Of a DNA stretch of 64,000 nt, positions 43,332 through 62,731 are shown in pieces. The position numbers and the translations under genes are program-made. Numbering within the stretch: the first letter of the stretch is position 1; each line of letters opens with the position of its first letter. Origin of the DNA: Fimbriimonas ginsengisoli Gsoil 348 (lineage in GTDB: Bacteria > Armatimonadota > Fimbriimonadia > Fimbriimonadales > Fimbriimonadaceae); contig NZ_CP007139.1 of the NCBI RefSeq assembly GCF_000724625.1, positions 2,604,001 through 2,668,000 on the forward strand. The letters are read 5' to 3'. The notes beneath the pieces are model-generated. The model made no database searches, was not told where the DNA came from, and was given only the letters and a program-made list of their open reading frames with translations.

Positions 43332-43559
43332 ACGAACCGAAGCTCCTAACGCAGATATATTTTGGCGGGGCCACTAGAAACAGATTGTAACACAAGTGGA
43401 CCGCAAATGCCAAAGCAGACCGAAGGCCCAAAAACGACCCAAACGAGTCCACCGCGGCAGTCGAGTGCGATTCTTAGGGAAGGCACTGCGTCGTCCACCT
43501 CTGAGGTATATTTGATCGCCGGTCCGGCCCCCACGGACCTTCAAAACGGCAAAAAACGT

Positions 43560-43600
43560 CGGGGCGTGGCGCAGTTTGGTAGCGCGCTTCCATGGGGTGG
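43560..43600 (+). pseudogene. 5' half of a tRNA-Pro(GGG) gene, truncated at the island edge
   Basis: Bases 43560-43600 read as the first half of a tRNA: acceptor strand CGGGGCG, TG, D-arm GCGC-AGTTTGGTA-GCGC, then CTTCC and anticodon loop ATGGGGT (anticodon GGG), followed by GG. After that the sequence departs from tRNA: no GGAAG closing the anticodon stem, no valid T-arm and no CGCCCCG acceptor strand follow. It lies exactly where the accessory region starts, so it is probably the remains of an integration site. Confidence 0.6.
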
Positions 43601-43927
43601 GCTCCTGCCCTTCGACCCCCATTTCTTACCCTTTCCAGGTTCAAACCGCGCATTTCCACAGGTTAGGGATATGCGGCTCGACTTCACCCTGGGTGAGTGG
43701 TCCTCGACTGCTATTCTACACTCGTTGAAAGTCCGTCGGTTGTTACCAGTGTCGAACTTTATCGTTTGTCCCGTAGGAGCCATCGCCTTTGTATCTGGCT
43801 GAACGCTGGTGTTTCAGAGTCCTCGCAGAATATCGCCACTGACAACCATTTTGCTGTACTAACGCCTGTTATACTTGCGATCATCGCGCCATGGGCGTGC
43901 ACTTCCTTCTGGTCCGTGTATTTTATC

Positions 43928-46387
43928 GTGGCAAAGATTAAGGACATTCTCATTTGCCAAAACAAATCAGCGCAGATCGAATTAGCGAGGCGCGTCGTTC
44001 TTTCGCAAAACCTCGGTCCCTTCGGAATCTGGTCGTGGCTCGCTGATTCGCTGAGAGAGTTGCCGAGACGCTCTTGGACTCGAGAAGCTCACAAACGACT
44101 CTGGGATGGTGGGCTGTTGACAATTGACAGCACCCCTGCGAACCCTGGTTCGGTCGCTGACTACAGCAGCCGGATCATCTCAGCGGGGCTTCAGGTTAAC
44201 AAGCGGGTCGCAATACTCTTCCCGAAAGGAACGGATCATGGCAGCATTGTGCCGGATGTTGCGGTTTCCTGGTGCTTGGAACCGAAAGAGTTCAAGTTGA
44301 CGAACCGAGTCCTGCTTGTCAGCGGCCGAGCTGGCGCTCACAGGCCACTAAGACATGCGCAGGTGGGAGCACTTGCGCTAGCGAGTGTATTGGACATACA
44401 CGCCAATGATGCCAATGCCACCCTGAACCTGGCCGGGCGTGCTTCACAACTTCCGACAGTTATCTACACTTCACGCCCGTCAAACCTGAGGAGTCTACTG
44501 AATGATGTACAGCCAGATGTGGTCATTCTTGACTTGTGCGCGACGGATCGACAGCCCTGGGTTGTGTCGGCCATGGCCGATTTGCGAACGTTTAAGAACC
44601 CTGTCGCCCTATGGACAGATAACCCCTTCGTCTACGTGTTGGCGGGTTCAACCGAATGGCTTCGCTTTCGCTGGGACTCGGGAAAGCCAGCAGATGAGAC
44701 GGATGTGGAACCCCTGAGGCTGAGGTCACTCATCGCCCAGCAGGGAACTACATCCCTGAACTCACTGATCGTTCCGACGCTCAGCAATTCAGCGGAAGCG
44801 ATGATGAGAGATGCGACCATCGATCTTGTTCGAGCAAGGGTGGAGCTTAATGGGGCGTTGGCCCAGGAAGCAGCATCCCTGCTCGCCAGATTTGTCCGCG
44901 CGATGAGTCGGTTATCGATACCTGTTGCTGAGTTTGATGATCTCTCCAGCACCCACTGGGGTGTTGCTTCACTGACTGCTCTCAGTGACGAAGTTGAGAA
45001 CTATTTCAAGTATTGGACAGATTCACCCCTGCCGCTGACCCGTGCGCGAGAGGCAGCGCAGGAGGCTTTTCGCCTACTGCGAAGAGACGGACCCGCCTTG
45101 GGCAAAGCGCTTACCAACCACATCTTGGAAGGGAGAGAGCCCCGGCAGGTTCTTTTTCCTTCCCGTTCGCAGGCAGCACTGTTTCGAAAACATTTCGCAA
45201 GCGAGTACGGACTCCAGCAGGGTGCTCCTCTGCTCCCCCTGTCGCCGGATGAGTTGGGAACTTTGGAAATCGAAGGGCAGCTTCTCGTTGTCGGTTTGCC
45301 CTATCCCGACTTCTTCTTCAAAGCACCTCAAGTTCTTTTAACGGACCGGATTGAGGTACTCCACCATGAATTTGAGGTCAAACTCGCCGACTGGGTCTTT
45401 AACACTTCGGTAGAGATGTGTGCGCCATCTACAGAAGAAAATGTCCATGCCGTGGCACAACTCCTCGGCAAAACAGAGCCGATTATTGGGCCACAAAGCC
45501 AGTCCAGAATCGTGCGAACGCCTGCAACGTTTGTTACCCCCCAAGGGACAAAGGAGTCTCAAGCAATGCAATTGAACTTGCCAAGCCAGATAGACGCTTG
45601 GGCCAGTCTTCTAAGCCAAGAGGAGCTCGATGCCGAAGGAATGGAAAGCGAACCGTTGGAACGCGGAGGTACTTGGACTTCCGCTGCGGTCGAAATACGG
45701 TTTTCCGATCGCACATGGGTCTTCCTCGATGAGTGCGGTCCCGTTCAAGTCGTTACAAGTAGCAGAATGGAGCAGCGTCCCGCAAGAGACTTGGTTGCCG
45801 GTGATCAAATCATGCTCATCAATGGTCAGAAGCGACAAGATCAATTTTCGATGCTGCTGACTAGACTCCACGCCGTTAGCGGTGTTTCCGTTTACGTTGA
45901 TCTCGTCAATAGGTGGCGGAGCGAAATCGGTGAACTGTACCATCGACACTGGGTCGCCCAGGGGTTGGGAACCAACGAGTTACTCTGTAAGCTCAGGTCC
46001 CTGGGCACAAGCGTCACAACGGCTGATACGGTTCGAAACTGGATTCGTGGCTGGCATACACCGCAAGACCGCCAAGACATCTGGAGAGTCGCAGTCGCTC
46101 TCGAAATGCCATTCACGACCCAGCACCACCGGGCCATAGCAAAGGCTGCCACGGAGATCGCCAACGTTCACCGACAAGTGTCTCGGCAGATTAACCTTTG
46201 GCTGGAATGGCGATTGAGCGATCCCCTAAGAGCAAGGTCCGCGATGAATGCAGAGATTCTCCCCGATCTAGGGATTTCTCTTGCAGATTTCTATGACGCC
46301 GTTGTGATACTCGACATCGAAGAAATCCAACTCCTTGACCGTCCGGTTCCGGGGAGTCTAATTGGAAGGAGACAAGGCTTACTATGA
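43928..46387 (+). CDS. drmE: DISARM-associated protein DrmE (class 2 type)
   Basis: The frame is open from GTG 43697, but the first ~77 codons look non-coding; GTG 43928 (VAKIKDILICQNK) gives 819 aa, a plausible DrmE length. No strong ribosome site marks the start. I assign it by position: it is directly upstream of, and overlaps by ATGA, a drmA-drmB-drmC set, as in class 2 DISARM. Visible features are a Rossmann-like stretch (TVIYTSRPSNLRSL, DVVILDLCATDR), and a C-terminal helical region. The molecular function of DrmE is not established. Base composition is less GC-rich than in the upstream genes. Confidence 0.7.
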   Translation: MAKIKDILICQNKSAQIELARRVVLSQNLGPFGIWSWLADSLRELPRRSWTREAHKRLWDGGLLTIDSTPANPGSVADYSSRIISAGLQVNKRVAILFPKGTDHGSIVPDVAVSWCLEPKEFKLTNRVLLVSGRAGAHRPLRHAQVGALALASVLDIHANDANATLNLAGRASQLPTVIYTSRPSNLRSLLNDVQPDVVILDLCATDRQPWVVSAMADLRTFKNPVALWTDNPFVYVLAGSTEWLRFRWDSGKPADETDVEPLRLRSLIAQQGTTSLNSLIVPTLSNSAEAMMRDATIDLVRARVELNGALAQEAASLLARFVRAMSRLSIPVAEFDDLSSTHWGVASLTALSDEVENYFKYWTDSPLPLTRAREAAQEAFRLLRRDGPALGKALTNHILEGREPRQVLFPSRSQAALFRKHFASEYGLQQGAPLLPLSPDELGTLEIEGQLLVVGLPYPDFFFKAPQVLLTDRIEVLHHEFEVKLADWVFNTSVEMCAPSTEENVHAVAQLLGKTEPIIGPQSQSRIVRTPATFVTPQGTKESQAMQLNLPSQIDAWASLLSQEELDAEGMESEPLERGGTWTSAAVEIRFSDRTWVFLDECGPVQVVTSSRMEQRPARDLVAGDQIMLINGQKRQDQFSMLLTRLHAVSGVSVYVDLVNRWRSEIGELYHRHWVAQGLGTNELLCKLRSLGTSVTTADTVRNWIRGWHTPQDRQDIWRVAVALEMPFTTQHHRAIAKAATEIANVHRQVSRQINLWLEWRLSDPLRARSAMNAEILPDLGISLADFYDAVVILDIEEIQLLDRPVPGSLIGRRQGLL

Positions 46388-49300
46388 GTAGCCAAGCGTT
46401 ACCAACTGAAGTTCAGAATCAACTTGAATTAGCTTCCGCACTCATTGAGTACGTGGTTGCAGAAGCATCGGGCCGTTCCGAGACTGTTTGCTTCGGGGAC
46501 TTCCCAAGGAATCAATACTTCATCGGTAGTCTCCGACCCACTCCCTTGGCTCCCGATGCGACTCGCTGGCTTTCAGACCTAAAGCAAAAAATGTCCCCGG
46601 TTGCTGCAGGCTTGGACGCGCTGGTCAAGATACCCAGTGACCACTCAATAGAGGTTTGGGCAACGATCAGTTGGAACGTCTACTACCGAGTCCGTCCATC
46701 GTATGAAGAACAACAAACCTTTCAAGATCCAATCCGCAGGGACGATGAGGACAACGACGATGACTCGGTCGGGTCTCCACCCCCGCCTTCACAACCTAAC
46801 ACAAGGCAGCGGGAGCGGCCGGTACCCAAATTCAAGAAATTGAATTGCTCGGCATCTGGTCCATTAGTCTTGCAAAGCCATGAAAGCGGGATAAGTGTCG
46901 AAGCTGGTGGCGTAAATACCGCCATTAACGCGGAGCTGGCGAGGGTTGGCGCTATACGTGACGCAGACCCTGACTTGTTCCGAGTGGGTCCAAGGCCGGA
47001 CCCTGAGTTACCAAACAAGCTCGGAGCAGCAGACATGGTTAGCGACCAGGCCTATAGACGATATTGGGCTAATTTGCCGGACCTGGCGATTACACCATGG
47101 GCTATCCGCGTTGACGTCTCCTGCGAACCTTCTCCTGAGCACATTGAACATGGCCGGCTGGTAGTGGATATCGTCAATGTCACTCCGATCTCCGAGAAAG
47201 ACCAGGTTCACGAGCCGTTCATATTCGACACACGCTTGCAACTCGAATTCCCATCAGGCTGTCTGGCTCCATTTCGCCTAGTCTCTGCTCCGAAGGACTT
47301 TCGAGAAAATCCACGTATGTTTGGCCGGGGCCGCAACTGCGCGGTCGAACATGCTGACGACACCCTTTCTACCACCCACACGCCGATGTACATGCAGGGC
47401 CGTTACGTCACAAGGGAAACGCCCGAAGCACTTACTTGTGAGCTTGCAACAGATCCGTTTCCCACATTGGAGAAACTAGAAGTGGCAATGTCCTCCTACG
47501 AATTGGCGTGGGATCAAGCGCTGTCCGAATTCAGACTCGACCCAGCATGGGATGATGAACAAGAATTGGCCTTTATGAAGGACCGAGCACTCTACTTCGA
47601 TGAGGTAAGTCGCTTCAAACACGGCCTCAACCTATTGCGAACAAATGCAGATGTTGCATACGCTTTCACGCTCATGAATCGCGCTTTCGAGCGCAATGCA
47701 CTAAGAGCCTGGAGACTTATGCAGATTGTCTTTATCGTTACCCAACTCCCGGGACTCGTTGCCGAAGATCCGATGGATCAGGAAAGGGAAACAGTTGACA
47801 TAATCTACTTCCCAACTGGGGGCGGAAAAACCGAAGCTTACCTTGCCGCAGTAGTTTTCTCATGCTTCTGGGATAGATTGCGAGGGAAGATTGCAGGTGT
47901 CACGGCTTGGGCTCGATTTCCTCTTCGCCTCCTTACTGCACAGCAGTTGCAGCGTTTTGCAAACATCATTTGCTGTGCCGACCTAGTGCGAAAAGCCGAA
48001 CCGGATATTAGGCTCTCGGGGAGTAATGTAGACGGTTTTGCGGTCGGCTATTACGTTGGCTCTGGCGGAACACCGAATTCCATCCAGTCGGCCACGGCGT
48101 CGAACTCCGGATCGGGGCTACCTTGGGCTCAAGCGCAGGACCCAACGTTCATTCAGAAGTTCAAACGAATCGCAGTCTGCCCGGCGTGCCGCACGAGAAC
48201 CGTGATCGTGGAATTCGACCACGTCGCCGTAGTTCTCCGCCACAAATGTGTAAATGAATCGTGCGCGTTTTCAGAAGGAATACTTCCAATATACGTTGTC
48301 GATAACGACCTTTATCGTTATCTCCCAAGTGTTATGGTCGGCACTCTCGACAAACTCGCGCAAATAGGTATAGCACGAAAATTTGGAATGATTTTAGGCA
48401 GTGTCGATGGCAGGTGCCCCACTCATGGGTACTACAACGGCAAATGTTGCCAAGATGGCTGCCGCGAAACTCTATCGAAAGTGAAGCCTGTGGGCCTGTC
48501 CGGTCCTTCCCTCTTTGTTCAAGATGAACTGCATTTGCTGCGCGAGGGTTTAGGAACCTTCGACTCCCATTATGAGACGCTATTCCAGCTACTTCTGAAC
48601 GAAGCTGGTACGAAGATGCCGATCAAGATACTAGCTTCCTCAGCCACGATTGAGCAGTTTGAGAGGCAAGTCAACCAGCTGTATGCCAGAAGCAAGGCCA
48701 GAGTATTTCCCGGCCCAGGTCCGAAGAAGGGCCACTCGTTTTACGCAACAACTCTGAACTACCCACAAAGGCTCTACGTCGGAGTGTTACCCCACAACAA
48801 GACTCTTCTAAACGCGTTGTTTAAGTTGACTGAGTCGTACGTGCGCGGCTTGGGAACGCTACGCGGGAGATATCACACAGGACCAACCTTTACCGACGTT
48901 TCCACCCTCTACTCGTCTTGTGCGCATTACTTCTTGGCCAATCCTGACTTAGACGCTTTTAAGACTGACTTACGGGATCATGTCAGCCCAGCGCTAGTTA
49001 AGGATGGTTTCCCGCAGCCCACGACGTATACACTGACTGGAGGCACGTCTGCAGACGACGTAAGTGGAACCTTGGAGGCACTTGAGAGAAGCTCAGCCGT
49101 GTCAGACCCTGTTCAGTTCGTGTTGGCCACCAATACGATAAGCCACGGAGTCGACATTGACAGGTTGAACTGGATGTTCTTCTTTGGGATGCCTCGTCAG
49201 ACTGCCGAGTATATCCAAGCGTCGAGTCGAGTGGGAAGGGCATACATTGGTGTTGTCTTCACATGCTTCAACCCTACCAGGGAGCGAGACCAAAGCCATT

Positions 49301-49791
49301 ATCACTACTTCGCTAAGCAACACGAATTCCTCGGCAAACTCGTTGAACCTGTGCCAGTAAATAGATGGTCGAAATTCTCTCTCGACCGTACTTTGCCGGG
49401 TGCCATCAATGCGATGTTGCTACACCAGCAGTCCCAGAAACTGAGAAGTGACCGCAGGAATCTAGTCTATATTCTCGACAATGTCAAAGCCATGTTTGCC
49501 AGCGGCGAACTGAGCGAAGCAGAAGTTGAATCAGGCGTACTGACGGCGTATTTGGGGCCTCAAAACAACCTTGGGGACCCAGCATTCCGAGCTAGACTGC
49601 AGCAACGCTGCAAAGCCATTATATTTGACCAGATCGAGACGAGTGTTCGGCCGGTCACGTTCGTGAGCGATGCCATGACACCTAGTCCCATGAGGAGCCT
49701 TCGTGAAGTTGACGAGCCTGTGTCCATACGACTGAATTCGGCGGGCTTAAGTTGGAGTAGGGTTGCACGTGCAAAGGGCGGTGGAGCGTAG
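46384..49791 (+). CDS. drmA: DISARM helicase DrmA
   Basis: The 1135-aa protein is an SF2-type helicase: Walker A in YFPTGGGKTEAYLAA near residue 480, DELH box in FVQDELHLL near 714, motif III LASSATIEQFERQ near 753, and C-terminal motifs LATNTISHGVDIDRL and YIQASSRVGRA near 945. Between Walker A and DELH there is a ~230-residue insert with zinc-type cysteines (CPACRTRT ... CVNESC). The N-terminal ~450 residues are typical of the long DrmA proteins. In DISARM, DrmA and DrmB form a complex that acts on invading DNA. It overlaps drmB by one base. Confidence 0.88.
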   Translation: MSSQALPTEVQNQLELASALIEYVVAEASGRSETVCFGDFPRNQYFIGSLRPTPLAPDATRWLSDLKQKMSPVAAGLDALVKIPSDHSIEVWATISWNVYYRVRPSYEEQQTFQDPIRRDDEDNDDDSVGSPPPPSQPNTRQRERPVPKFKKLNCSASGPLVLQSHESGISVEAGGVNTAINAELARVGAIRDADPDLFRVGPRPDPELPNKLGAADMVSDQAYRRYWANLPDLAITPWAIRVDVSCEPSPEHIEHGRLVVDIVNVTPISEKDQVHEPFIFDTRLQLEFPSGCLAPFRLVSAPKDFRENPRMFGRGRNCAVEHADDTLSTTHTPMYMQGRYVTRETPEALTCELATDPFPTLEKLEVAMSSYELAWDQALSEFRLDPAWDDEQELAFMKDRALYFDEVSRFKHGLNLLRTNADVAYAFTLMNRAFERNALRAWRLMQIVFIVTQLPGLVAEDPMDQERETVDIIYFPTGGGKTEAYLAAVVFSCFWDRLRGKIAGVTAWARFPLRLLTAQQLQRFANIICCADLVRKAEPDIRLSGSNVDGFAVGYYVGSGGTPNSIQSATASNSGSGLPWAQAQDPTFIQKFKRIAVCPACRTRTVIVEFDHVAVVLRHKCVNESCAFSEGILPIYVVDNDLYRYLPSVMVGTLDKLAQIGIARKFGMILGSVDGRCPTHGYYNGKCCQDGCRETLSKVKPVGLSGPSLFVQDELHLLREGLGTFDSHYETLFQLLLNEAGTKMPIKILASSATIEQFERQVNQLYARSKARVFPGPGPKKGHSFYATTLNYPQRLYVGVLPHNKTLLNALFKLTESYVRGLGTLRGRYHTGPTFTDVSTLYSSCAHYFLANPDLDAFKTDLRDHVSPALVKDGFPQPTTYTLTGGTSADDVSGTLEALERSSAVSDPVQFVLATNTISHGVDIDRLNWMFFFGMPRQTAEYIQASSRVGRAYIGVVFTCFNPTRERDQSHYHYFAKQHEFLGKLVEPVPVNRWSKFSLDRTLPGAINAMLLHQQSQKLRSDRRNLVYILDNVKAMFASGELSEAEVESGVLTAYLGPQNNLGDPAFRARLQQRCKAIIFDQIETSVRPVTFVSDAMTPSPMRSLREVDEPVSIRLNSAGLSWSRVARAKGGGA

Positions 49792-51656
49792 TGGCGATGG
49801 AAGTTGGTAAGCGGCAGATTCTATTTCAATACTTGCCTGGAAAGGTGTTCGATCATCGTGATGGAGTAATCGCGCGCGTCCGTTCAATTGTGGGCAGGGA
49901 GCACAAAGACGTTACGCCCAGCCTGCTACTGCAATCCATTCGTGAGCATGCATCCAGCTGGCCCGCCGACATGCGCACAAACTTGCCGGACCAACACCTA
50001 AACGACCTCAGCCAGTTCGTCTTTCTAGACCCGCTCGAATTAGAAGCCGAGCTATTTCCGCTCGTCTTCTGGTGCAATAACGATAGCTGCGCGCACGTTC
50101 GAGTAGTCAACGAAGACACAGTACCCAGGACGGCAAAGTGCACGAGATGCTCGGTCGGCGAAGCTATTCAAATGCCGTTTGTGCTGATGCACGCTTGTGG
50201 TCGGCTCGAAGCTTGGAATCCTCCTCAGTGCGGTACATGTAGATCAAGGGCCGATCTTGCTCTTCAGCGAAGAGGCAAGCTTCTGGGAAGCAACTCCCGC
50301 TGGTGGTGTCTGCGTTGCCAGGTAGCTGTTACCCCCCTCACGCCGAGATGTTCATGCGGTTGGTCGAACCCTGCAGATGGCATTTCGCCGATGATGCAGT
50401 ACGAACTATATCGCGCCGGTCGAACCATGTACCCGCAAACTGTAACTGCGGTCAATCAACCAAACAGATCGGAGGAGACAACGAAATTACTGGCCACCGA
50501 TGGTTGGGCAGCAGCGGCGACTTCAATCCATCTGGGCTTGGACCAGATTCGTGGAATGTCCCTCAACGAATGGTGCCGCCAAAGGCGAGCGGTTGACGGC
50601 GACGGAGCAGCAGCAACTGCAGAAATCAGCACGGAGGAACTAAATGCTTTAATGAATCAGCTTATGCGAGGTGAGATCACGCCGGCGCAGATGCAGGAAC
50701 GGGTTACTCAGGCTAGACAGTCCGCAAGTTCTAGCCAAGTTGCTCTTTCACGAGCGAATTTGGAAGCCGCTATTTACAACGCGATCAACTTGGATTCTCC
50801 AGCAATAGCAAGCGTTGGGCGTGAAATGTTGGAGTCAGTATTCCTCTCGGAAGCTACCCGAGTAGGAACTGAACAGGGGGACTCCAACGGCACCTCTATT
50901 GAAAGACTGCTGGCCAAAATGGGAATTGCCGAAGTTTCAGTTGTGACAGACTTCCCCGTGACTACTGCAGTTTATGGCTTTACGCGGGGAGCCCCAGGTC
51001 AGAAAGCCAAGCTCAACCCATTTCCTCGCGACACTCATTACGGAAGAATTCCAGTTTACACGGACGTCGTGGAGGCGGATGCATTAATTGTAACGCTCAA
51101 TCCCAATATGATTGTACAGTGGCTCGAATCACTTGGCTACAGTTGTACTTTGCCCGGTGCCTCTTCTCCGGAGGTCTCAGCGAAGGGATATTTCCTAAAC
51201 CTATTTGATGGTGTTGATCTTCGGGAAACAATCGGGGCAGGAGCGCCAGAGGCAAGATTAGTATTTGGAGCACTGCACTCGTTATCACATATCTCGATTA
51301 GGCAGGCCGCATTACTGTCCGGTCTTGATGTCACTAGTATGTCCGAGTATTTGCTGCCTCGATCCCTCTCCTATGCCATATTTTGCAACCATCGATTTGG
51401 AGCAACTATTGGTGCCTTGGTATCGCTCTTTGACCAATCTCTTGAGATCTGGCTAGAGTCCATCAGAGAAAATAGAGGTTGTGTTTACGATCCTGTTTGT
51501 ACGTCGCAAGGAGGGGTTTGCCATTCCTGTTGCCACCTAGCCGAGACTAGTTGCAGGTTCTTTAACCTCAACTTAGCGCGTCCCATGCTTTTTGGTGGTC
51601 ATGACCGTGAACTCGGCAATGTTTCTCGCGGATATTTGCAGTTTTCAGAGGAATGA
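49791..51656 (+). CDS. drmB: DISARM protein DrmB (DUF1998)
   Basis: The 621-aa protein starts at GTG 49791, overlapping the drmA stop (TAGTG). The N-terminal half has paired cysteines (CGRLEAWNPPQCGTC, WWCLRCQVAV, PRCSCGW). The C-terminal half is a DUF1998 domain ending in a cysteine cluster (DPVCTSQGGVCHSCCHLAE, then TSCRFFN). DrmB partners the DrmA helicase in all known DISARM systems. It overlaps drmC by 4 bases, completing one translationally coupled unit. Confidence 0.88.
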   Translation: MAMEVGKRQILFQYLPGKVFDHRDGVIARVRSIVGREHKDVTPSLLLQSIREHASSWPADMRTNLPDQHLNDLSQFVFLDPLELEAELFPLVFWCNNDSCAHVRVVNEDTVPRTAKCTRCSVGEAIQMPFVLMHACGRLEAWNPPQCGTCRSRADLALQRRGKLLGSNSRWWCLRCQVAVTPLTPRCSCGWSNPADGISPMMQYELYRAGRTMYPQTVTAVNQPNRSEETTKLLATDGWAAAATSIHLGLDQIRGMSLNEWCRQRRAVDGDGAAATAEISTEELNALMNQLMRGEITPAQMQERVTQARQSASSSQVALSRANLEAAIYNAINLDSPAIASVGREMLESVFLSEATRVGTEQGDSNGTSIERLLAKMGIAEVSVVTDFPVTTAVYGFTRGAPGQKAKLNPFPRDTHYGRIPVYTDVVEADALIVTLNPNMIVQWLESLGYSCTLPGASSPEVSAKGYFLNLFDGVDLRETIGAGAPEARLVFGALHSLSHISIRQAALLSGLDVTSMSEYLLPRSLSYAIFCNHRFGATIGALVSLFDQSLEIWLESIRENRGCVYDPVCTSQGGVCHSCCHLAETSCRFFNLNLARPMLFGGHDRELGNVSRGYLQFSEE

Positions 51657-52180
51657 ACGATTCAACTGTGCTGGTTACGACATTGCCGGACCAGCTACTA
51701 TGTGGGACCGAGTTTGATGTCCGGCGAACTGCTGGGGTGCTCGTTCAACTTGTTACGGAAGCCAAAGAGGAGCTTCTCATTGCCTCTCCCTTCATCACCG
51801 CGGATGATGAGTATATGGGTGGGGAGAGCATGTATCAGTCCTTGGTAGCAGCGACAAAAAGAGGTGTTAAGCTTATCTGCTTCCTCTCGACCAGTGGCGC
51901 AAAGGACGTGCTGTCCAATGGGCTTCACCGTGAACTACATAACCTAACGCTCTTCGAGCCTAGCAGTGCACTTGCTGCTGAGAAGCGCATGGGTTCGCAC
52001 GCAAAAGTGGTGATTGCAGACTCAATGAGTGCCTACATTGGGAGTGCCAATTTCACCTATCCTGGCCTGCACTCCCAGTTGGAGATCGGAGTACACGTCC
52101 ACGGGGATATCGCTCGGGAGTGCAGGTGCCTCTGGAACATAGTTCAGGCGAACGGCTACTTCCAGCAAGTCTTCCCTTAG
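51653..52180 (+). CDS. drmC: DISARM phospholipase D-like protein DrmC
   Basis: The 175-aa protein has one HKD motif: His116-x-Lys118-x4-Asp123 in SHAKVVIADS, followed by GSANFTYPG, the PLD/nuclease active-site signature. Upstream is a typical PLD beta-alpha stretch (ELLIASPFITADDEYMGG). Single-motif PLD proteins work as dimers. DrmC is reported to be dispensable for protection in some DISARM systems. It is somewhat short for the family. Its stop overlaps that of the convergent GNAT-ABC gene (TTAG). Confidence 0.85.
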   Translation: MNDSTVLVTTLPDQLLCGTEFDVRRTAGVLVQLVTEAKEELLIASPFITADDEYMGGESMYQSLVAATKRGVKLICFLSTSGAKDVLSNGLHRELHNLTLFEPSSALAAEKRMGSHAKVVIADSMSAYIGSANFTYPGLHSQLEIGVHVHGDIARECRCLWNIVQANGYFQQVFP

Positions 52181-54735
52181 TTTGCGTTATCTCTAGCGTG
52201 TCGCATCAGTGCAATTCTTATCCCTATTTGCCTTCGAAGAGTTCCCATAGTCCAGTCCTGCCCGATCCCAGAAAGCTCCGCAGTTAATCGAGAAACTCTC
52301 ACCTCGTCTTGAGATTCTGGCCACTCCAATATGTCAGTTGTCAAACGATGATACAGCAGGTCGTTATCTGACAAATACTTGTGTGGAGAAAGATCGGCTT
52401 CTTTAGCCTCTTCGAGTGCCGCCCCTACGCCACTAAAGAAGCGTAGTATTGGATCTGGGTTTGGTCTTCCCCCGGATACCAACCTCAGTCGAATGTCGGG
52501 GGCAAGCGCAGCCGCAATCCGAGTCGCGTCTGCGGCGGCGACAATTAAGGTGGCTCCACGCAGACGGGCTAACTTGGCTATCCCGGATGCTACCATCACT
52601 GAGGTTAATGGATCGAGGAACGCGCAGAATTCGTCCGCAACCCAGACGCTCTTCCCCGACGCGACGAGCATTGCAGCCGCGACTCGATATCGTTGGCCAT
52701 GCGAGAGTTGGTTCCGCTTTTTAAGATAGACTTTCGCTTCTGAGATGCCAGCCGAATTAAGGTACATGCATGCGTCGCGTGTACTCGCATCAATCAGGTC
52801 GATGACTGCTAAGTGTTCATTGAAATTTAGGTCTAGGTTGGCAACCTCATTGCCTAGAGCGGCAGGCGTGATCGTGCCTGAGTGGATCTGTGTCTTGCCA
52901 AACAGGCTTTCCAAAAGGGTTGACTTTCCGCTACCGCTCGCCCCTTCAAGTAGAACTATGGAGCCTGGTGGGATATCAAGGGAGAAGTCTTCTATTACGC
53001 AATTTGAGTCGGAATCTTCGTCGAGGCCGAAAGCCGACACAATCTCCAGTTCTCTCGTGCTGTTCGTCGAGCGGGACAGCTTGACTTTCACTGAGCGGAG
53101 TGTGTCGTGGACAGAACTAATGCGGAGTAGTTCGTTTTCCTTCAAGCTTCCATGCTGTTCACTAAGGAAGTTCGATAGTGCCGATTGAAACAGGTCAATC
53201 GTCTGCGATAGCGTTGAACGGGAGGCATGGAGAGCCTCTAAGGTTCTTGCGAGGTCGTTTGCAACTCCGATTATGGAATCGGAGAGAGCCGATGACTGAT
53301 CATAGGCTAAACCGACCTGACACTTGTATTCGCTGATCGCCTGGGAGACAGCCCCGGCAAGCGCGGAGTAGGCCCCCATGTGGGAATCGTTATCGACAGC
53401 CACTTCATCAGGAATTCTTCTTAGCGCCTGATGAATTCGAGTGATTTCATTATGTAAGGGAACCAAGTCTTGGTTAAGTCCGAGTGAACTCGATGAGAGC
53501 CTGGGAATATGAGCGGATACAATGTGTCCAATAGTTGCACGGCAGAATCGAATGAGGGGAGGCTGTACTTGAGCGCAAGAAGCTTCTTCAGAAGCCACTG
53601 CAACGTGAGCTAGCTGTATTCGGTCGTAAACTGCTATTGGACAACCTGATAAGGGAACAGCGTAATATGGTTTCGGAGAAGATGCTTTCATTTTCATCCG
53701 GTCGAGACTCGATCTCCAGTGCCCTGATCCCATCTGATGATCCAGTTTGTCTTTCGGTGTGATGAGAACCTCTTCTCTGCCTGAGGTCTCACCAAGGAGG
53801 AGCATGCCGCCCTTTTGGAACAGCGGATGTAAGCGGCTCATCTCCGCGACAGTCTCTAGGAGCACTGGCTTCTTTCCGGCTGCATTCCAGTGTAATTCTG
53901 CATATGACCTCGCAGCCTCTACTAGTAAGCGTCCCGTGCCGATCCCTCGGAACTCTGGGTGCACGACAACGCGGGCAATTCGCACAACGCGGTCGACATG
54001 CGCGAGTCTTCCGATGCTATCCCATTCGAAAAGCCTGTCTCTTGGAGTTGTAAGGAGAGGGGGGGAATTAAGCATGACGTAACCGATGGCTCCATTGAAT
54101 GGACGCTTCGTGTGCTCGTCAAGCAGTCGTAAGATGAGGGCAGTAGACCTGCCCCACATATTTAAGGTTCGATAGTGAAATTTATTAAGCCATCTGACGG
54201 CGTCGTAATCGGAGGCAGAAACAACCTCTGCACAACAGAGGCAGAGTGAAGTCCCATTAGCGACCGGCATGACGGAAGTATTCCGAAAGTATGGTTTGAG
54301 AATTGCGGTGGCGAGTTCGCCAAACCCGTTGCAGAGGAGCTTGCTCACCTGGGGTTCGTCGTCTTCGTTTATTACGAGGTAATCCCTGTTTGCCAGACTC
54401 GGTTCTTGCTCGGAAGTGTCCTTCTGAAACAAGTATGAAAATCGAGACAAAGTAATTGTCTTGAGCTGTTTGGAGCCCGAAACGGACCTTAAAGTCAAGA
54501 GTTTGCCCGTCGATTTGGCCCGCACGTCTATCAATTCCCACGCTTCTGGATAGCATTCGGCTATCTTCTCGCTGCTCCATGGAGCAGCGTTGGAGGAGAA
54601 GTTTGACTTGGGCACTCCGTATATTGTAGCGAGTCTGCTGGGAGATTGAGCCCGGACGACTGGTCGTTTGCCCCGACTGCTCATCGCGTTTGGAGAAGGT
54701 GTTCGGGCTCGCAGTGGAGCCCGAACAAACTGCAA
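52177..54735 (-). CDS. GNAT acetyltransferase - ABC ATPase fusion protein (COG2401-like)
   Basis: The 852-aa protein joins unusual modules. About residues 30-150 are an unassigned N-terminal domain. About 150-325 is a GNAT domain with the acetyl-CoA loop in RIARVVVHPEFRGIGTGRLL. About 330-570 is a helical linker. About 580-800 is an ABC ATPase with Walker A LLEGASGSGKST (~600), signature LSHGQ (~675) and Walker B SVWVADEFCAFLDP (~695). There are no membrane segments, so it is soluble. The start is uncertain: TTG 54735 directly follows the ArdC stop; ATG 54684 is an alternative. Function is unknown; context suggests defence or counter-defence. Confidence 0.85.
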   Translation of the reverse strand: MQFVRAPLRARTPSPNAMSSRGKRPVVRAQSPSRLATIYGVPKSNFSSNAAPWSSEKIAECYPEAWELIDVRAKSTGKLLTLRSVSGSKQLKTITLSRFSYLFQKDTSEQEPSLANRDYLVINEDDEPQVSKLLCNGFGELATAILKPYFRNTSVMPVANGTSLCLCCAEVVSASDYDAVRWLNKFHYRTLNMWGRSTALILRLLDEHTKRPFNGAIGYVMLNSPPLLTTPRDRLFEWDSIGRLAHVDRVVRIARVVVHPEFRGIGTGRLLVEAARSYAELHWNAAGKKPVLLETVAEMSRLHPLFQKGGMLLLGETSGREEVLITPKDKLDHQMGSGHWRSSLDRMKMKASSPKPYYAVPLSGCPIAVYDRIQLAHVAVASEEASCAQVQPPLIRFCRATIGHIVSAHIPRLSSSSLGLNQDLVPLHNEITRIHQALRRIPDEVAVDNDSHMGAYSALAGAVSQAISEYKCQVGLAYDQSSALSDSIIGVANDLARTLEALHASRSTLSQTIDLFQSALSNFLSEQHGSLKENELLRISSVHDTLRSVKVKLSRSTNSTRELEIVSAFGLDEDSDSNCVIEDFSLDIPPGSIVLLEGASGSGKSTLLESLFGKTQIHSGTITPAALGNEVANLDLNFNEHLAVIDLIDASTRDACMYLNSAGISEAKVYLKKRNQLSHGQRYRVAAAMLVASGKSVWVADEFCAFLDPLTSVMVASGIAKLARLRGATLIVAAADATRIAAALAPDIRLRLVSGGRPNPDPILRFFSGVGAALEEAKEADLSPHKYLSDNDLLYHRLTTDILEWPESQDEVRVSRLTAELSGIGQDWTMGTLRRQIGIRIALMRHARDNAN

Positions 54736-55557
54736 TTATAGGATGTAGGTCAACATATCGCAAGCAGCATGCTGCACGAGCGTAAGTGACTGTGCGAGCA
54801 GTTTCTCGTCGCCACCGTAGAGCCGGATGTAGTCCCAACTCGCGGTCCGGTTTTCGAGACCGCAGGCCTGGGTGACGACGTAGGCAACGGCCTCGGCTTC
54901 CACCTCGCGGATCTGCCTTGTCGTCTCGATGCGGCGTGGTCCTCGGTGGAGTAGTTCATGGGCCAATTCGTGGGCAAGCACTGAGAGCTCCTCTGCCGGT
55001 TCCAAACCGCGTAGAATCGTGATCGCCTGTCCGTGGCTGAGCCCAAGGGCTCCACCCAGGTTGTCCGCGTAAGCGAGGCCGATATGCTTCTCTCGCACGA
55101 GGTCCCTCAGGCGGGTGAGATAGCAGCCAACTTGTCCCGATGTCTTTCCGAGAGTGGGTAGAGGTTCCCCTTCCGTCTGCTCAGCATCGAACACGTAGAC
55201 CGTTACAAACCGCGTGACGATCTTGGGCGCGTCCTTTCGGTCGGCGTCCTCGTCCTCCGGGAGTTCGTCCGGCCGTGGACGTCGCATGGATGGTGCGAGA
55301 ATGGCAATGCCCTTCTCACCCTTCTTCACCCATCGTCCCAACTCTTTCCAACGGTTGAAGCCCGCCACTTGGGTAGCTTCCGGCCGCTGGCAGAGGATCA
55401 GGAGACAGTTATGGAAGGAGTACCGGTGGAACCGGGACATTACGTCGAGGTAGCGGGTCAGTTCGTCGCTGTTGCCGCTGGCGAGCGCCTCAGAGAGGCG
55501 AGTAAGGGCAGATGCCGCAAGGGTCGCGGCTTTGTCGTTGGTTGCAGTAATGGACAC
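54736..55557 (-). CDS. ArdC-like antirestriction protein (ssDNA-binding/metallopeptidase)
   Basis: The 273-aa protein starts at GTG 55557 with GAGGAGG 5 bases upstream. The N-terminal half matches the ArdC N-domain: RFHRYSFHNCLLILCQRP, ATQVAGFNRWKELGRWV, KKGEKGIAILAP. The C-terminal half is a zincin with LAHELAHELLHRG (about 193-205) and a downstream VEAEAVAYVV Glu. ArdC proteins protect incoming plasmid DNA from restriction. Here it lies in an operon with the GNAT-ABC gene and faces a DISARM cassette. The zinc motif is intact. Confidence 0.88.
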   Translation of the reverse strand: MSITATNDKAATLAASALTRLSEALASGNSDELTRYLDVMSRFHRYSFHNCLLILCQRPEATQVAGFNRWKELGRWVKKGEKGIAILAPSMRRPRPDELPEDEDADRKDAPKIVTRFVTVYVFDAEQTEGEPLPTLGKTSGQVGCYLTRLRDLVREKHIGLAYADNLGGALGLSHGQAITILRGLEPAEELSVLAHELAHELLHRGPRRIETTRQIREVEAEAVAYVVTQACGLENRTASWDYIRLYGGDEKLLAQSLTLVQHAACDMLTYIL

Positions 55558-56051
55558 GTGGTCCCTCCTCGGGAGCCGTCAAGGACTCCGCGCCGAAAGA
55601 GCGCCTTGAGGTCATCGAGGAAGGGCATGTCGGTACCTGCACGGGCATGGAAAAAGGTGGCGGTGGGCACCAGCAGCGAAGGTTGATGTCTGATCGCGGA
55701 AAAGCGGAAGGAAGGGGCCCCAGGGGTAGGGCCAGCCACCGCTAGGAGAAAGAGTCGGGTGGTCCGTCCTCGGGTCCCAAGGAGGACGGCCTGTGGCTGA
55801 GTCTTACGCCTGGGGAGGGAATTCCGCTCGGAGCGTCAGGCAGCAGACGAGCGTGGAAATTAGCCGATCAGCCAGGGCCGAGCATCATAGGGAAGAAGCG
55901 TAACGAGGAACGAGTGGAGCGTATGACCGGATGCCGGTCCGGTCTCGATTGAGGCCAAAATCAGTCATCTTGCCGTAAGTCCGAGAACCGCCACCAGCGT
56001 GTTCTCGAATTACAATCCCCGCAGAAGGATCTTGAGAACGTATTCTAAGCG
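55558..56051. other. Intergenic region between ardC-like gene and endonuclease gene
   Basis: Roughly 490 bases without a convincing gene. A minus-strand frame overlapping the ArdC start (MPFLDDLKALFRRG from 55628) could be a short leader peptide but has no support beyond being open. An 8-bp hairpin (ccgtcctc/gaggacgg, 55764-55789) is present. The leaders of both divergent genes must lie here. Confidence 0.4.
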
Positions 56052-57158
56052 GTGCCCAAGAAGCAGCCAATTCGTAGCACCATCAAGGACAAGGGCCTGA
56101 ACACTCGGAAGGGACGAATGGTCGAGCAACTGGCCGCTCGGCTCCTTCGGATTGGCGGCATAGACGTGGAGACACGCGTCATGCTCCCCCCAGCAGGTGG
56201 TACCGGTGGGAGACGCGAGATCGACATCTTAATCCGCATTCGGTTGCCGGGGGGCAATGAAGCACTTTATGCCGTGGAGTGCAAGAACGAAAAGAAGCCG
56301 ATCGAAGCGGAATACATCGACGCCTTCTACGGAAAGTTGACTTATCTCGGTATTCCGGCTGAGAACGGCATCTTTGTCTCGCGAAGTACGTACCGTCGCG
56401 GAGCCGTTGAAAGAGCCGCAGCGGCTAGTGTTCGACTCCTTCGATTGACCGGGCTAAAGGATGACGGGCTGACGGCTATGGTATTGGAGGCGATCCAGTC
56501 GGTCGTCTACCTCCTCGCAGATATAGAAGAAATGACTGTCTCTACATCTTCCAATGACGGGGGCCCGCTCTTCTGCACGGAAGACGGCTCCTATGCCGGG
56601 AATCTGATGGACTTAGTACACCGGGCATGGGCTCAAGGGGGAATCCCGAGGGTTTTGGGCCAACACGAAGTTGTATTAGCGGTCCCGCCCCACTGGCGTT
56701 CGCGCACAGCCGGGGAGCCAGCCGAGGTGTTTGAAGCTTCGGCAAAGGTCAAAGTGATTGGTGTCGTCTATACAGTTGTGGGCGAGGCGACTACCCACAC
56801 ACTAACAGACCATGGCACTGGAGTTGTCCAGCGAGGCGAAATCCAAGCACGGTGGGATGAGACTAAGCACCGTATTGTCTTGGCGTCCTTCGGATCGTCC
56901 GATGAGTTGGAGCGCCATTTGCAGGGGTTGCGCGGGCTAATCCACGTGGTGGCCCGCAATGTGCCGATGCCGCGTATTAACGTCCGTTCAGATTGGGGGA
57001 GGCTCTACTGGCCGCCCAGCGACCAAGTCTTGAGCACAATTGTGAATAGGTTTGACCAAGGACTGCCTATCGGTCAACCGCAAGACGACTTTGAGGGGAC
57101 TGTGTTCGACCGGGTATTTGATCCAGTCGCGGCTGCGTATGTCGCCCGCTTCCACTAG
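56052..57158 (+). CDS. PD-(D/E)XK (Mrr-like) restriction endonuclease-family protein
   Basis: The 368-aa protein starts at GTG 56052. The N-terminal third is a restriction-endonuclease-like fold: VEQLAARLLRIGG (Glu25), RREIDILI (Asp58) and YAVECKNEKKPI (Glu76-x-Lys78), the complete catalytic set. This is followed by FYGKLTYLGIPAENGIFVS and RGAVERAAAASVRL, typical of Mrr-type sequences. The remaining ~230 residues, probably a target-recognition or regulatory part, are not recognised. No methyltransferase gene is adjacent, so it could be a modification-dependent nuclease or an element-protection enzyme. Confidence 0.78.
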   Translation: MPKKQPIRSTIKDKGLNTRKGRMVEQLAARLLRIGGIDVETRVMLPPAGGTGGRREIDILIRIRLPGGNEALYAVECKNEKKPIEAEYIDAFYGKLTYLGIPAENGIFVSRSTYRRGAVERAAAASVRLLRLTGLKDDGLTAMVLEAIQSVVYLLADIEEMTVSTSSNDGGPLFCTEDGSYAGNLMDLVHRAWAQGGIPRVLGQHEVVLAVPPHWRSRTAGEPAEVFEASAKVKVIGVVYTVVGEATTHTLTDHGTGVVQRGEIQARWDETKHRIVLASFGSSDELERHLQGLRGLIHVVARNVPMPRINVRSDWGRLYWPPSDQVLSTIVNRFDQGLPIGQPQDDFEGTVFDRVFDPVAAAYVARFH

Positions 57159-57820
57159 GTTACCAAGATGGGCCTTCTCCGACTATCGTGTCGCAAGGGC
57201 TCCACGTAAGTCAGATTCATAATCAGCGAATATCATGCGGAGCGGAGAAGAGAGGGAGGGGATGTTCGTGCCCCGGAAGAGACTCTTCTGATATTCGGAA
57301 TTATGATATCTGCAGGACCGACTTTCGAATAGGTGCGCCGACCGTGAGCGAAGCGAACTTCAGGTCACGTGCCGAAGGCTCCATATCCTGAGGGTTCATG
57401 GATTGGTTAAGCGTTTGGGCTCCGCCACGGGCCCGCCTATGTGCGTCGTCAGGCGCACGTTCCGCCGACCGGAGGTTATCTGAAAACGCACCCCGGGGTC
57501 GCAAAAATGACCCCTCCCCCCGGTTTCCTGGCGTATGTATTCTGAAAGTGCGGGGGCGGGCGTCCCGTGCCTTGCATGGAGAGCTATCCAGCCCTTCGAA
57601 ACTAAACTTTGAACTTCAGTGGCTCAAAGTGATTGCTTGGAGCGTGAAAGCCGAAGTCGTGCGCGCCCAACTGGTGGAAGGTCCCGAGCGAGTGGGACTG
57701 ATAAAAGGATGGTGAGTGATGGCTAAACACGTGACCGTGATGCCAAGTCGCGGCACGAACCGTGTGGGTCGCATTGTCTCCAAAGCCATGGTCGAATCCC
57801 TTTCCGTGTAGTAGATCCAT
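57159..57820. other. Gene-poor region with possible short ORF and hairpin
   Basis: About 660 bases without a convincing gene. A 30-codon plus-strand ORF at 57719-57811 (MAKHVTVMPSRGTNRVG...) follows GGTGAG and could be real. A frame ending at 57715 (ELQWLKVIAWSVKAEVVRAQ near its end) directly precedes it. The hairpin ggggtc/gacccc (57495-57514) has a loop gcaaaaat. A decayed gene or non-coding RNA is possible. Confidence 0.35.
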
Positions 57821-58744
57821 TTAATCGAGCTCCTTCAGCGCCGTTCGCGCCGGTCCAAGTGATTGGTTCATTGAGAGTGCCTGTATCCATGCTTGGCGGG
57901 CCTCCTCGGGCCGACGCTGCAAGATGAAGAGGACACCTTGGGAATACAGAAGGTCGGCTTGTTGCCAGCGAACCTGGGCCGCTGCCGACTGCTCCCCGTG
58001 CTCCTCGCCCACCCACTTGCCGACGTAGCTTCCCACCAACGTTCCGGCTCCGGGCATAAGCAAAGTCCCGATGACGGCACCGGCAAGCGCTCCGCCTGTC
58101 TGAGCCCCGCTGCGGTGGGACCTCTCCGTGTCGGTGGTCTTGACGAGTCCGGCACGTAGCGAAGCCTCCGCCGCGTTGAACTCTTGTTTGAAGAGGTCTC
58201 GGCAGAAATCATCCAGGACGGAGACATGACTCCGACAACCGCTGCACCTTCCGGACGCTCCGCAATCCAAACATGGGTAAGACTCGGCCCCGACGATGCC
58301 GTATCCGTCACACCTCCGGCACACGCTATCGCCTGCGCACTGCGGACACGAATTGATGGCGACGGCAACACCACGTACCCGCACCTCACGTTGTCGAGGG
58401 GCTTGTAGTCGGGTGGGACACGGTGTACGCGTCGCGACTTCGCCGGCGTCCGCGGCGGTCATCGAGAACTCGAAGACCTGGGCACCCACCTGCAACACAT
58501 CACCAGGTCTAATGAGACCGCTCGCCACTCTTCGCGAGTTCAAGAACGTTCCGTTTGTGCTGGAAAGGTCTACGACTTGCCATCCGTGCGAAGTCGTCTC
58601 GATCCTCGCGTGTCTCCGACTCATCAGGACGTCGTCAGGAAAGGGCATGTCGGTACCCGTGTCCCGGCCAATGGTGATTATCTTGTCGCCAATGCTACGT
58701 GACCGGCCTTGGCTCCACTGCATCCGCAGGTATTCCGAACTCAT
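57821..58744 (-). CDS. FHA domain / DnaJ-type zinc finger / glycine-zipper protein
   Basis: I start at ATG 58744 (MSSEYLRMQWSQGRS), which overlaps the stop of the upstream gene (ATGA); the much longer open frame upstream is a shadow of that gene. In the 307-aa product an FHA domain occupies about 18-95 (GRDTGTD, SRRHARI, SSTNGTFLN: phosphothreonine-binding residues intact). About 125-170 is a CxxC/CxxCxGxG zinc-finger array (CPQCAG, CRRCDGYG, CLDCGASG). A glycine zipper (GGALAGAVIGTLLMPGAG) can insert in membranes, and a short TPR-like end follows. It is probably a phosphorylation-responsive envelope or stress protein. Confidence 0.78.
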   Translation of the reverse strand: MSSEYLRMQWSQGRSRSIGDKIITIGRDTGTDMPFPDDVLMSRRHARIETTSHGWQVVDLSSTNGTFLNSRRVASGLIRPGDVLQVGAQVFEFSMTAADAGEVATRTPCPTRLQAPRQREVRVRGVAVAINSCPQCAGDSVCRRCDGYGIVGAESYPCLDCGASGRCSGCRSHVSVLDDFCRDLFKQEFNAAEASLRAGLVKTTDTERSHRSGAQTGGALAGAVIGTLLMPGAGTLVGSYVGKWVGEEHGEQSAAAQVRWQQADLLYSQGVLFILQRRPEEARQAWIQALSMNQSLGPARTALKELD

Positions 58745-59178
58745 CTTCCGAGCATCCCCGACGTGATTACGGCCACGACGACCGCCGCCGCGACCAGCCC
58801 CCAAAGCAGCATTCCTTCCACCACGGTCGCAAGCCCTGCCCACCGTCCTTCGGGCCATAGGGCACCCTTGACCGCCCAGCCGACTCCAAGGAGCAAGCAT
58901 GGGCACGCAATGCAAAGGACCGCGTACCAGCCCGCAAAGCCTGACCGCAGAGTGCTTCGAATTCCTCGCTCTCGGTGAACGTAGGCGTCGGTCCCGAACC
59001 ACAGGACGGAATGCCAGCTTCTCGGGCGGGAATACGTCGGCATGGCTTGTATGGGGATAGGGACGGCTTGTGGGGGCGACGTTCCGGGCCTGCTGCTTCC
59101 ACATTGGAAGCACATGGGCGAATGCGCGAGCACGTTCGTGCCGCACCGCGAACAAACCCAATACTGCGTGCTAACCAT
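58741..59178 (-). CDS. Zinc-ribbon membrane protein
   Basis: The 145-aa protein starts at ATG 59178 with an N-terminal zinc ribbon (WVCSRCGTNVLAHSPMCFQC), a Pro-rich linker and two hydrophobic segments (about 81-102 and 118-140). It overlaps the FHA gene by 4 bases, so the two are co-translated and may work together at the membrane. No specific family is recognised. Confidence 0.75.
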   Translation of the reverse strand: MVSTQYWVCSRCGTNVLAHSPMCFQCGSSRPGTSPPQAVPIPIQAMPTYSRPRSWHSVLWFGTDAYVHRERGIRSTLRSGFAGWYAVLCIACPCLLLGVGWAVKGALWPEGRWAGLATVVEGMLLWGLVAAAVVVAVITSGMLGR

Positions 59179-59263
59179 GGAATCTCGTGCCCCATCTCAG
59201 GCGGCTCATCCAGATAGGATACGCGATTGAACTCTATTTGGGTTCAGCTCTTAAGTCATTTTC

Positions 59264-59542
59264 GTGGAATTGAGGCGCTCGCGACTCTTCCTTCAATCTC
59301 CGCTTAACGACCGCCTGCAGCAGTTCATTCTCCAGTCGCGCCAAAAGGCCGGAATGTCTCAACGGGAACTCGCATCGAAGCTCGGCGTTCGCCAAACGAT
59401 GGTCGCGAGAATCGAGCAAGGAAATCGCTCGGTCGATCTGGGAGAGTTCGTCGCAATATGTCGGCTCCTGGGTGAAAACCCTTCCGAGGTGCTTACGTCG
59501 CTTCTCAGTCATGATCCATCGGCTGCCGACGCTAAGGAGTGA
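59264..59542 (+). CDS. XRE-family HTH regulator
   Basis: The 92-aa protein starts at GTG 59264 and has a classic XRE helix-turn-helix at about 22-76 (SQRELASKLGVRQTMVARIE, then DLGEFVAICRLLGENPSEVL). It is divergent from the zinc-ribbon gene, and inverted repeats in the region downstream (59738-59761) could be its operator. It probably represses element genes, as in many phages and ICEs. Confidence 0.85.
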   Translation: MELRRSRLFLQSPLNDRLQQFILQSRQKAGMSQRELASKLGVRQTMVARIEQGNRSVDLGEFVAICRLLGENPSEVLTSLLSHDPSAADAKE

Positions 59543-59737
59543 TTTCTCGAATGGGCAGGCTTCCTGTGACCCAGTCTCCAAAATAAATACGAGTGAAACG
59601 GCACTCAACCCCGGCTCAGCATGGGGTTAGCGGTGCATCTCCCAGGTTGGCAGGATGACACGTATCGGTCATTGTTTGACCTCTCTTGGGCAACCAACGG
59701 GAGGGCCCAATAAGCCATATTCTGCTAATTCAATCAA

Positions 59738-59761
59738 AAGTATTTCATTCTCGAAATACTT
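59738..59761. promoter_or_regulatory. Interrupted palindrome, operator candidate
   Basis: AAGTATTTC and GAAATACTT are perfect inverse copies separated by ATTCTC. The size and spacing fit an XRE/Cro-type dimer site; the XRE gene ends 195 bases upstream. Confidence 0.5.
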
Positions 59762-59957
59762 CTATGGCGGCGCCCGGGACGGCGCTACGGAGCCTGATGG
59801 TTTGGAGCTTGTCGAACCCTAACGCCCTTAGGCCACCCGGCTAGACGCTCCTCTCCTGCAGGCGCTCTCCCAGTTCGGGGACCTGAATCCCATGGCCCAG
59901 GCCGTAGGACAGTAAGTCGGTCCCTGCACTAATCGCTGGACTTTCCCGTGCAGATTA

Positions 59958-59969
59958 GGAGAATTCTCC
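59958..59969. promoter_or_regulatory. Palindrome upstream of the small HTH gene
   Basis: GGAGAATTCTCC is a perfect 12-bp palindrome about 85 bases before ATG 60055 and could be a second regulator site. Confidence 0.4.
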
Positions 59970-60054
59970 AAATTTTCCAGATCGATGTACATACATTGGC
60001 TCCCACCTGCATAGCTCTATTTGTGAACCGGAACAATCCGGCCAAGGAGTCAAC

Positions 60055-60246
60055 ATGGAGCAACACATCATTATTGAAAATACGCCACGGCATCGGAAGC
60101 GGCTGTCGCCTATCCGGCAGAAAGCGCTGCAGATCCTGCGTTCCGAAGGTATGACCCAGCCGGAAGTGGCGGAGGCGCTGAGCGTTTCCGACCGCTGCGT
60201 GCGTACCTACGAGCGACTGTTCAAGATTGTAAAGGGGGGTGCGTAA
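60055..60246 (+). CDS. Small helix-turn-helix protein
   Basis: A 63-aa protein preceded by AAGGAG. Residues of about 17-57 form a sigma-r4/resolvase-type HTH (LSPIRQKALQILRSEGMTQP, then EVAEALSVSDRCVRTYERLF). Its TAA overlaps the ATG of the next gene (TAATG), so it is co-translated. It may be a recombination-directionality or replication-control factor (inference). Confidence 0.7.
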   Translation: MEQHIIIENTPRHRKRLSPIRQKALQILRSEGMTQPEVAEALSVSDRCVRTYERLFKIVKGGA

Positions 60247-60881
60247 TGGAGTGCCTCTCCGAGTTCGACGTAGGCCAGGTGATACGTGCTCATAGGGCGG
60301 CGACCAACGCGGTTGTGGCGGTTCCACCCGGTTACTTTGACCAAGCTGCCCCAGCCACTCCCAAGCCCTGGGTGATGGAAAAGGGCAGGTTCGCCGGAAA
60401 GAGCATCGACACCTTGCCTGGCGACTATCTGACCTACATTGCCCAATTCAAGGGCGGTCGCAACCTAGACGCCCATTTTGCAAGGATGGAGCTGGAACGG
60501 AGGGCAGAGGCATGGCGGCTCGAATTGGAGCGCACGAAGTCGTTAGCAGATGAGCACACCGAAGCCAAGCCTTCTGAGACTACGTGGATGCAGCATGTCG
60601 TCATCATGCAGCCCGTCCTGGACCTAAATAGGTTCGACGAGATTCAGGTGACGCTAAAGGACAACTACGCGGAGTTGCCCGACGGTCGGCGCATTCCGAA
60701 GAGCAAGTTCATCCCCATCGGACGTGTGAAGATGCCATTCGGCCAACACAAGGGGAAGCGTATTGAAGAAGTGGGGGAGCCATACCTCCGGTGGATGGTC
60801 AAGGAGATGATCAAGCGAGGGGGCATCGTGCGAACTGTCGAGCGCTACCTGGAAGATCTAAAGGCGGCCCGCAATGCTTAA
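60246..60881 (+). CDS. Protein with ExoX-C/DUF3820-like motifs
   Basis: In this 211-aa protein a motif typical of DUF3820 and the ExoX C-terminus (FGQHKGKRIEEVGEPYLRWM, about 167-186) is clear. A weaker version lies near the N-terminus (KGRFAGKSIDTLPGDYLTYI). The middle (about 75-150) is charged and helical. Such motifs occur in DNA-processing proteins of phages and plasmids. It lies between the HTH gene and the polymerase gene, overlapping the latter by 8 bases, so the three form one unit. Confidence 0.65.
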   Translation: MECLSEFDVGQVIRAHRAATNAVVAVPPGYFDQAAPATPKPWVMEKGRFAGKSIDTLPGDYLTYIAQFKGGRNLDAHFARMELERRAEAWRLELERTKSLADEHTEAKPSETTWMQHVVIMQPVLDLNRFDEIQVTLKDNYAELPDGRRIPKSKFIPIGRVKMPFGQHKGKRIEEVGEPYLRWMVKEMIKRGGIVRTVERYLEDLKAARNA

Positions 60882-62493: not shown

Positions 62494-62731
62494 ACGCGGG
62501 TGCTGATTCTTTCGTTTACGTTATGCCGCCGCCTTGGGGAGGAGCAATACTCAATATTGTCGCTCAGGGGGGGACTGTGCTGATTCGCGGCTTCGGCTCG
62601 AAGACTTCGAGAACGAAATTCTCTAGGAGTATCCACAGCTGATGACCATGTGGACAGCCGCCGGGGGTCTCGCAAAGCTAGCTTCTTTCCGCTCCCTATC
62701 CGTAGGGGGGTATGTGAGTTTGCCTTGTAAG
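62494..62731. other. Gap after the polymerase gene with DnaA-box-like sequence
   Basis: About 240 bases between convergent genes. GTATCCACA at 62629-62637 differs by one base from the DnaA-box TTATCCACA, and TGTGGAC follows 10 bases later in the opposite sense. Close to a polymerase gene this could belong to a replication origin, but one box is weak evidence. Confidence 0.35.

Follow-up and report, generated by a model that had tools for sequence, protein, structure and literature searches.

A displaced 5' half of tRNA-Pro(GGG) very probably marks the left end of an integrated island in Fimbriimonas ginsengisoli

Two copies of tRNA-Pro(GGG) and the segment between them

In the window analysed here, a stretch of 64,000 nucleotides of the Fimbriimonas ginsengisoli Gsoil 348 genome (positions 2,604,001 to 2,668,000), bases 1-41 of tRNA-Pro(GGG) lie at 43560-43600 with 0 mismatches (Table 1). 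The match is cut two bases past the seven-base anticodon loop, and the DNA from 43601 onwards is unrelated; there the GC content drops from about 62% in the left flank to 55%. Both the cut and the change of sequence had been recognised in the original prediction, which was made from the window alone. Its author missed a complete copy of the gene because the window stops 1.4 kb short of it.

In fact, the match starts 2 bases before the tRNA, at 43558, and forms an exact 43-bp repeat with genome 2669407-2669449 (window-equivalent 65407-65449; E = 2.2e-15 against the entire 5.23-Mb single-contig genome). There stands a complete tRNA-Pro(GGG) of 77 bases (genome 2669409-2669485, + strand; L003:2409-2485), 21.8 kb from the half and beyond the window end. 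It is recognised by ARAGORN and by a permissive covariance-model search (57.8 bits) and is the only intact GGG copy found in the genome; the other tRNA-Pro matched, at 4395311-4395387, has the anticodon UGG. When the segment between the repeats is removed in silico, a continuous 77-base tRNA gene results between both flanks. The half itself drew no call from ARAGORN or from the Rfam/covariance-model search, as expected of something that is only half a tRNA, and the negative under Rfam default filters carries no weight because identical intact genes elsewhere are missed as well.

With those default filters, the Rfam tRNA model missed tRNA-Pro(GGG) in several genomes (L003:2409-2485, L041 and L043), and automatic annotation may overlook such genes. 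An inverted repeat adjacent to the gene was considered as the cause and ruled out, since identical genes without the repeat are missed too.

The segment between the copies is 21,849 bp long and ends at window-equivalent 65449 (genome 2669449), where the right flank has a GC content of 59%. At its right end, inside the island, lies a tyrosine-type integrase of 310 aa (PF00589, E = 2.9e-29) in one intact frame, 97 bp from the intact tRNA and oriented away from it, with the catalytic residues R159, K184, H248, R251, H274 and Y283 all present. The left part holds consecutive DrmE-, DrmA-, DrmB- and DrmC-like genes, all of which score below the NCBIfam cut-offs. Our criterion for DISARM was the presence of DrmA, DrmB and DrmC together, plus a DNA methyltransferase; the island genes that were scanned include no such methyltransferase, and the DrmC-like gene, at 175 aa, is short. 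After the Drm genes come an ABC-ATPase/GNAT protein, an ArdC/IrrE-like protein, a Mrr-type nuclease, an FHA-domain protein and unknowns. The segment 43601-65449 is recognisable from its sequence as a mobile island with a DISARM-like gene set, and its anatomy follows the standard plan of tRNA-integrated islands with one exception: here the 5' half has been displaced in place of the 3' half.

Since the complete gene stands 21.8 kb away, with an intact tyrosine integrase beside it and inside the accessory region, the half is very probably attL, the scar of an insertion into tRNA-Pro(GGG). The original prediction had placed the left edge of an accessory region here and named integration at a tRNA as the cause. 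The direct repeats at both ends, the integrase within and the lower GC bear out the first of these claims; the complete gene and the integrase at the far end bear out the second. The missing 3' half and an integrase, which it had advised looking for past base 64000, are both there, the 3' half as part of the one intact tRNA-Pro(GGG).

A comparison aimed at the empty site showed no synteny between the neighbouring genes and those of relatives within 1.5 kb in the genus, nor was an empty site seen directly. In G074, the nearest GntR homologue (62%) lies on a different contig from the tRNA-Pro. Integrases in viral contigs are distant (35% or less), and no informative tRNA junction appeared among the contigs examined.

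Table 1. Features at and near the left end of the island (window positions)
Feature	Position	Strand	Evidence
TATATT box, candidate -10 element of the displaced host tRNA promoter	43507..43512	+	GGTATATT box present ahead of the island-borne copy as well
Displaced 5' half of tRNA-Pro(GGG) (bases 1-41 plus two leader bases), very probably attL	43558..43600	+	100% identical to genome 2669407-2669449
Segment of the half that matches tRNA bases 29-41 in the anticodon stem-loop; inferred site of the crossover	43588..43600	+	Block overlap with G027
In-window part of the island	43601..64000		Flanked by direct repeats; contains the integrase; GC lower than in the flanks
AGGTTCAAA, candidate arm-type integrase site, island left end	43637..43645	+	Exact motif enriched at related island ends
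DrmE-, DrmA-, DrmB- and DrmC-like genes (DISARM-like cargo)	43697..52180	+	Pfam DrmE_C and helicase domains; PADLOC DrmE/DrmA/DrmB/DrmC

The crossover region and related islands

The closest relative of the integrase is that of G027 (56% identity, tree support 100/100). This sister enzyme uses the same tRNA gene, but there bases 29-77 are duplicated and a 3' half is left behind. The blocks duplicated here (genome G000, bases 1-41) and in G027 (bases 29-77) overlap at 29-41 only, that is, in the anticodon stem-loop, and this is why we place the crossover there; on this comparison of sequences the exact exchange would fall within bases 29-41. The anticodon stem-loop is described as a usual site of such integrases in passages of two published accounts (PMC4383910, PMC8371274).

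Among the family genomes compared, the present one alone has a 5' half at tRNA-Pro(GGG); 3' fragments starting at base 30 or 31 of this gene are found in G062, G074, G071, G069, G012, G018, G043 and G055. The 5'-displaced layout recurs in G028, in a tRNA-Arg(CCT), where the half again ends two bases beyond the loop. The displaced copies of G017 (Lys) and G070 (Val) run from base 4 to the end of the tRNA and differ only in the first three bases and the upstream region. These copies look like an intermediate between the 3' and 5' types, an attP with both halves, either of which could later be lost, in what we infer to be the order of events.

Two further arrangements were seen in these genomes. 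At G012:C16:52914-70707 (L067, L068), an intact tRNA-Pro(GGG) is followed by three successive 3' halves (bases 30-77), as expected for a tandem array of islands, and after the last 3' half by another incomplete copy, whose anticodon arm is altered. Tandem units of about 80-93 bp occur at L067:2760-2914 (G012), L070:4021-4185 (G043), L069:7445-7530 (G018) and L071:6935-7150 and L072:3530-3640 (G055); each has tRNA bases 1-26, a hairpin TCCCGA..TCGGGA that replaces the anticodon arm, and then AGGTCGC. In G012 the promoter is repeated in each unit.

What is directly observed is a duplication of 43 bp, an intact tRNA, an integrase that retains its catalytic residues, and the island boundaries. From these we envision that a tyrosine integrase recombining in the anticodon stem-loop put the 21.8-kb island into the host tRNA-Pro(GGG). 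The circular element would have carried tRNA bases 1-41 together with its own upstream DNA. At the left end, integration would have left the displaced promoter and 5' half of the host; at the right end, it would have joined the 5' half of the element to the 3' half of the host, so that a single complete tRNA gene stands beside the integrase. The restored tRNA would then be transcribed from island DNA. The likely origin would be a 3'-displaced ancestor whose right arm gained a 5' half and a promoter and whose left 3' half was then lost, a direction of change read from few islands and an only partly resolved tree.

Could the half instead be a decayed tandem copy of the tRNA that was already in place, the island having entered between this copy and the real gene by another route? 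Tandem units resembling the 5' part of the tRNA do lie just upstream of tRNA-Pro genes in the relatives G012, G018, G043 and G055, but their anticodon arm is changed, whereas the half is identical to the gene through base 41. Moreover, the half ends where an anticodon-type integrase should set the boundary, as it does in G028, and the far end of the island carries an intact integrase of the appropriate kind. We therefore hold this explanation to be very unlikely. Less credible still is the idea, put forward in the original prediction, that an unusual integration or a later deletion split the tRNA, with tRNA-Pro(GGG) consequently missing or put together from fragments: it agrees with a 5' half that gives way to unrelated DNA at 43601, and it is refuted by the complete gene at the other, right end of the island, with a 5' half that the element would have supplied. 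A chance match to tRNA, in keeping with the missing tRNA or Rfam call at the half itself, has a practically negligible probability given that 43 of 43 bases agree with the genuine gene elsewhere in this genome (E = 2.2e-15).

Upstream regions, inverted tRNA halves and an end motif

If the half is the attL of an integrated island, the element, being of the 5' type, needs a host-like upstream region of its own. In fact, the GGTATATT box lies upstream of both tRNA copies, and the upstream regions align over 46 columns with a score reached in 2 of 2000 shuffles, which points to such a host-like tRNA upstream region on the element itself. We count against this model that the best candidate promoter of the restored tRNA lies 65 bp upstream of the gene, with an inverted tRNA segment in between. 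At the left end, the candidate displaced host promoter faces the DrmE-like gene, and the DISARM-like genes are about 100 bp downstream; no intrinsic terminator was found on that strand between this promoter and the DrmE-like gene. To judge from this arrangement, the displaced host promoter may drive the DISARM-like genes once the island is integrated. In ICEKp1, an integrase gene is driven by a tRNA promoter (PMC13023037).

The inverted segment corresponds to tRNA bases 43-76 (window-equivalent 65354-65387; L003:2354-2387; 97%) and lies 21 bp upstream of the intact gene. In G028, bases 38-63 of the tRNA-Arg are inverted 16 bp upstream of the intact gene (G028:C9:98156-98180), and in the 3'-type islands of G027 (G027:C1:89103-89127) and G030 (G030:C25:32890-32920) an inverted 5' half is found 80-86 bp downstream. 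Wherever present (4 of 11 related islands), the inverted copy is always of the host-derived half and on the island side of the rebuilt gene. The local scores are 63 here and 36, 40 and 57 in G028, G027 and G030, each reached in 0 of 200 shuffles; among the flanks of tRNA genes outside recognised island loci there were none (0 of 95, top score 23). G017 has a weaker inverted trace, with a score of 23.

Because the copy in G030 takes in the host leader too, it has the appearance of host DNA duplicated in inverted orientation as far as the crossover. Beyond the inverted half, the DNA is weakly similar to host downstream DNA in the present genome (57 of 2000 shuffles reach the score) and more clearly similar to host upstream DNA in G030 (6 of 2000). 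Flipping of the element through an inverted second core was also considered and ruled out, as the inverted copies here and in G028 and G030 lack a kept core.

In this genome and in G028 the inverted T-loop reads TTCAA, against TTCGA in the tRNA, and resembles AGGTTCAAA, which is itself similar to the tRNA T-loop sequence. Across 16 related islands, exact copies of this motif number 13 in the outer 300 bp and 6 in the 167 kb of interior sequence, a 38-fold enrichment at the ends; we regard the motif as a candidate arm site of the integrase. A transcript from the TATATT box of the island is predicted to fold so that the inverted segment pairs with the 3' half of the tRNA. It is conceivable, at a rather low probability, that the inverted half is a working part of the attachment region and not a relic, either as a T-loop-derived integrase arm site or by pairing with the restored tRNA transcript. 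If the pairing is true, the element would affect the restored tRNA only while it is integrated.

Known systems and the meaning of the layout

The Islander database, in the passages of its account compared here, counts 3919 islands in total, of which 3760 have a 3' tDNA fragment and 159 a 5' one (PMC4383910). As had been anticipated, it is usually the 3' half that is displaced and less often the 5' half; the 5'-displaced layout is known but uncommon, the rarer of two known ways of sparing the target. In the same passages, an island is defined by a complete tRNA gene and a fragment in the same orientation that flank it (a 5' fragment upstream), a tyrosine integrase inside, a length of 2-200 kb and a fragment that reaches the tRNA end, and further by excision to a circle and an empty site in related strains. 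Here, the fragment (43560-43600) and the gene (2669409-2669485) are both on the + strand, an integrase lies between them, the length is 21,849 bp and the fragment covers bases 1-41; as to the empty site, relatives in the genus offered no synteny. The island shares with the 5'-fragment islands of Islander the displaced 5' fragment upstream in the same orientation, a tyrosine integrase of its own and an anticodon-centred site. It differs in having, next to the rebuilt gene, an inverted copy of the other half, a feature that those passages do not mention (PMC4383910).

Integrases of the archaeal (Thermococcales) pTN3 type use the 5' half of a tRNA-Leu with 41 bp shared, and the gene is rebuilt away from its original promoter (PMC5495485; PMC8371274). 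The same is seen here, with a common block of 43 bp; unlike in pTN3, where integration cuts the integrase gene in two, the integrase here is whole. The island is thus not a member of the pTN3 family, since its integrase is one intact frame beside the junction. With the common 3'-half islands, such as that of G027, it shares the integrase clade, the target gene and the crossover region, but there the 3' half is displaced and the tRNA keeps its own promoter. In the tRNA-dependent lysogeny of mycobacteriophages (PMC10865867), a tyrosine integrase likewise acts at a tRNA gene and departs from plain restoration of the 3' half; there, however, the target tRNA is left unrestored and the phage supplies an entire tRNA gene at another place, whereas here the gene is rebuilt at the junction.

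What appeared to be a broken tRNA gene thus becomes an island boundary that is mapped with precision. For its 5' half and upstream region, the sole tRNA-Pro(GGG) found in this genome now relies on the DNA of a mobile element. If the displaced promoter drives the defence genes, their expression would be tied to integration. Because its closest relative uses the same gene in the opposite, 3'-displaced way, this group of integrases offers a natural series for studying how an element switches which half of its target it carries.
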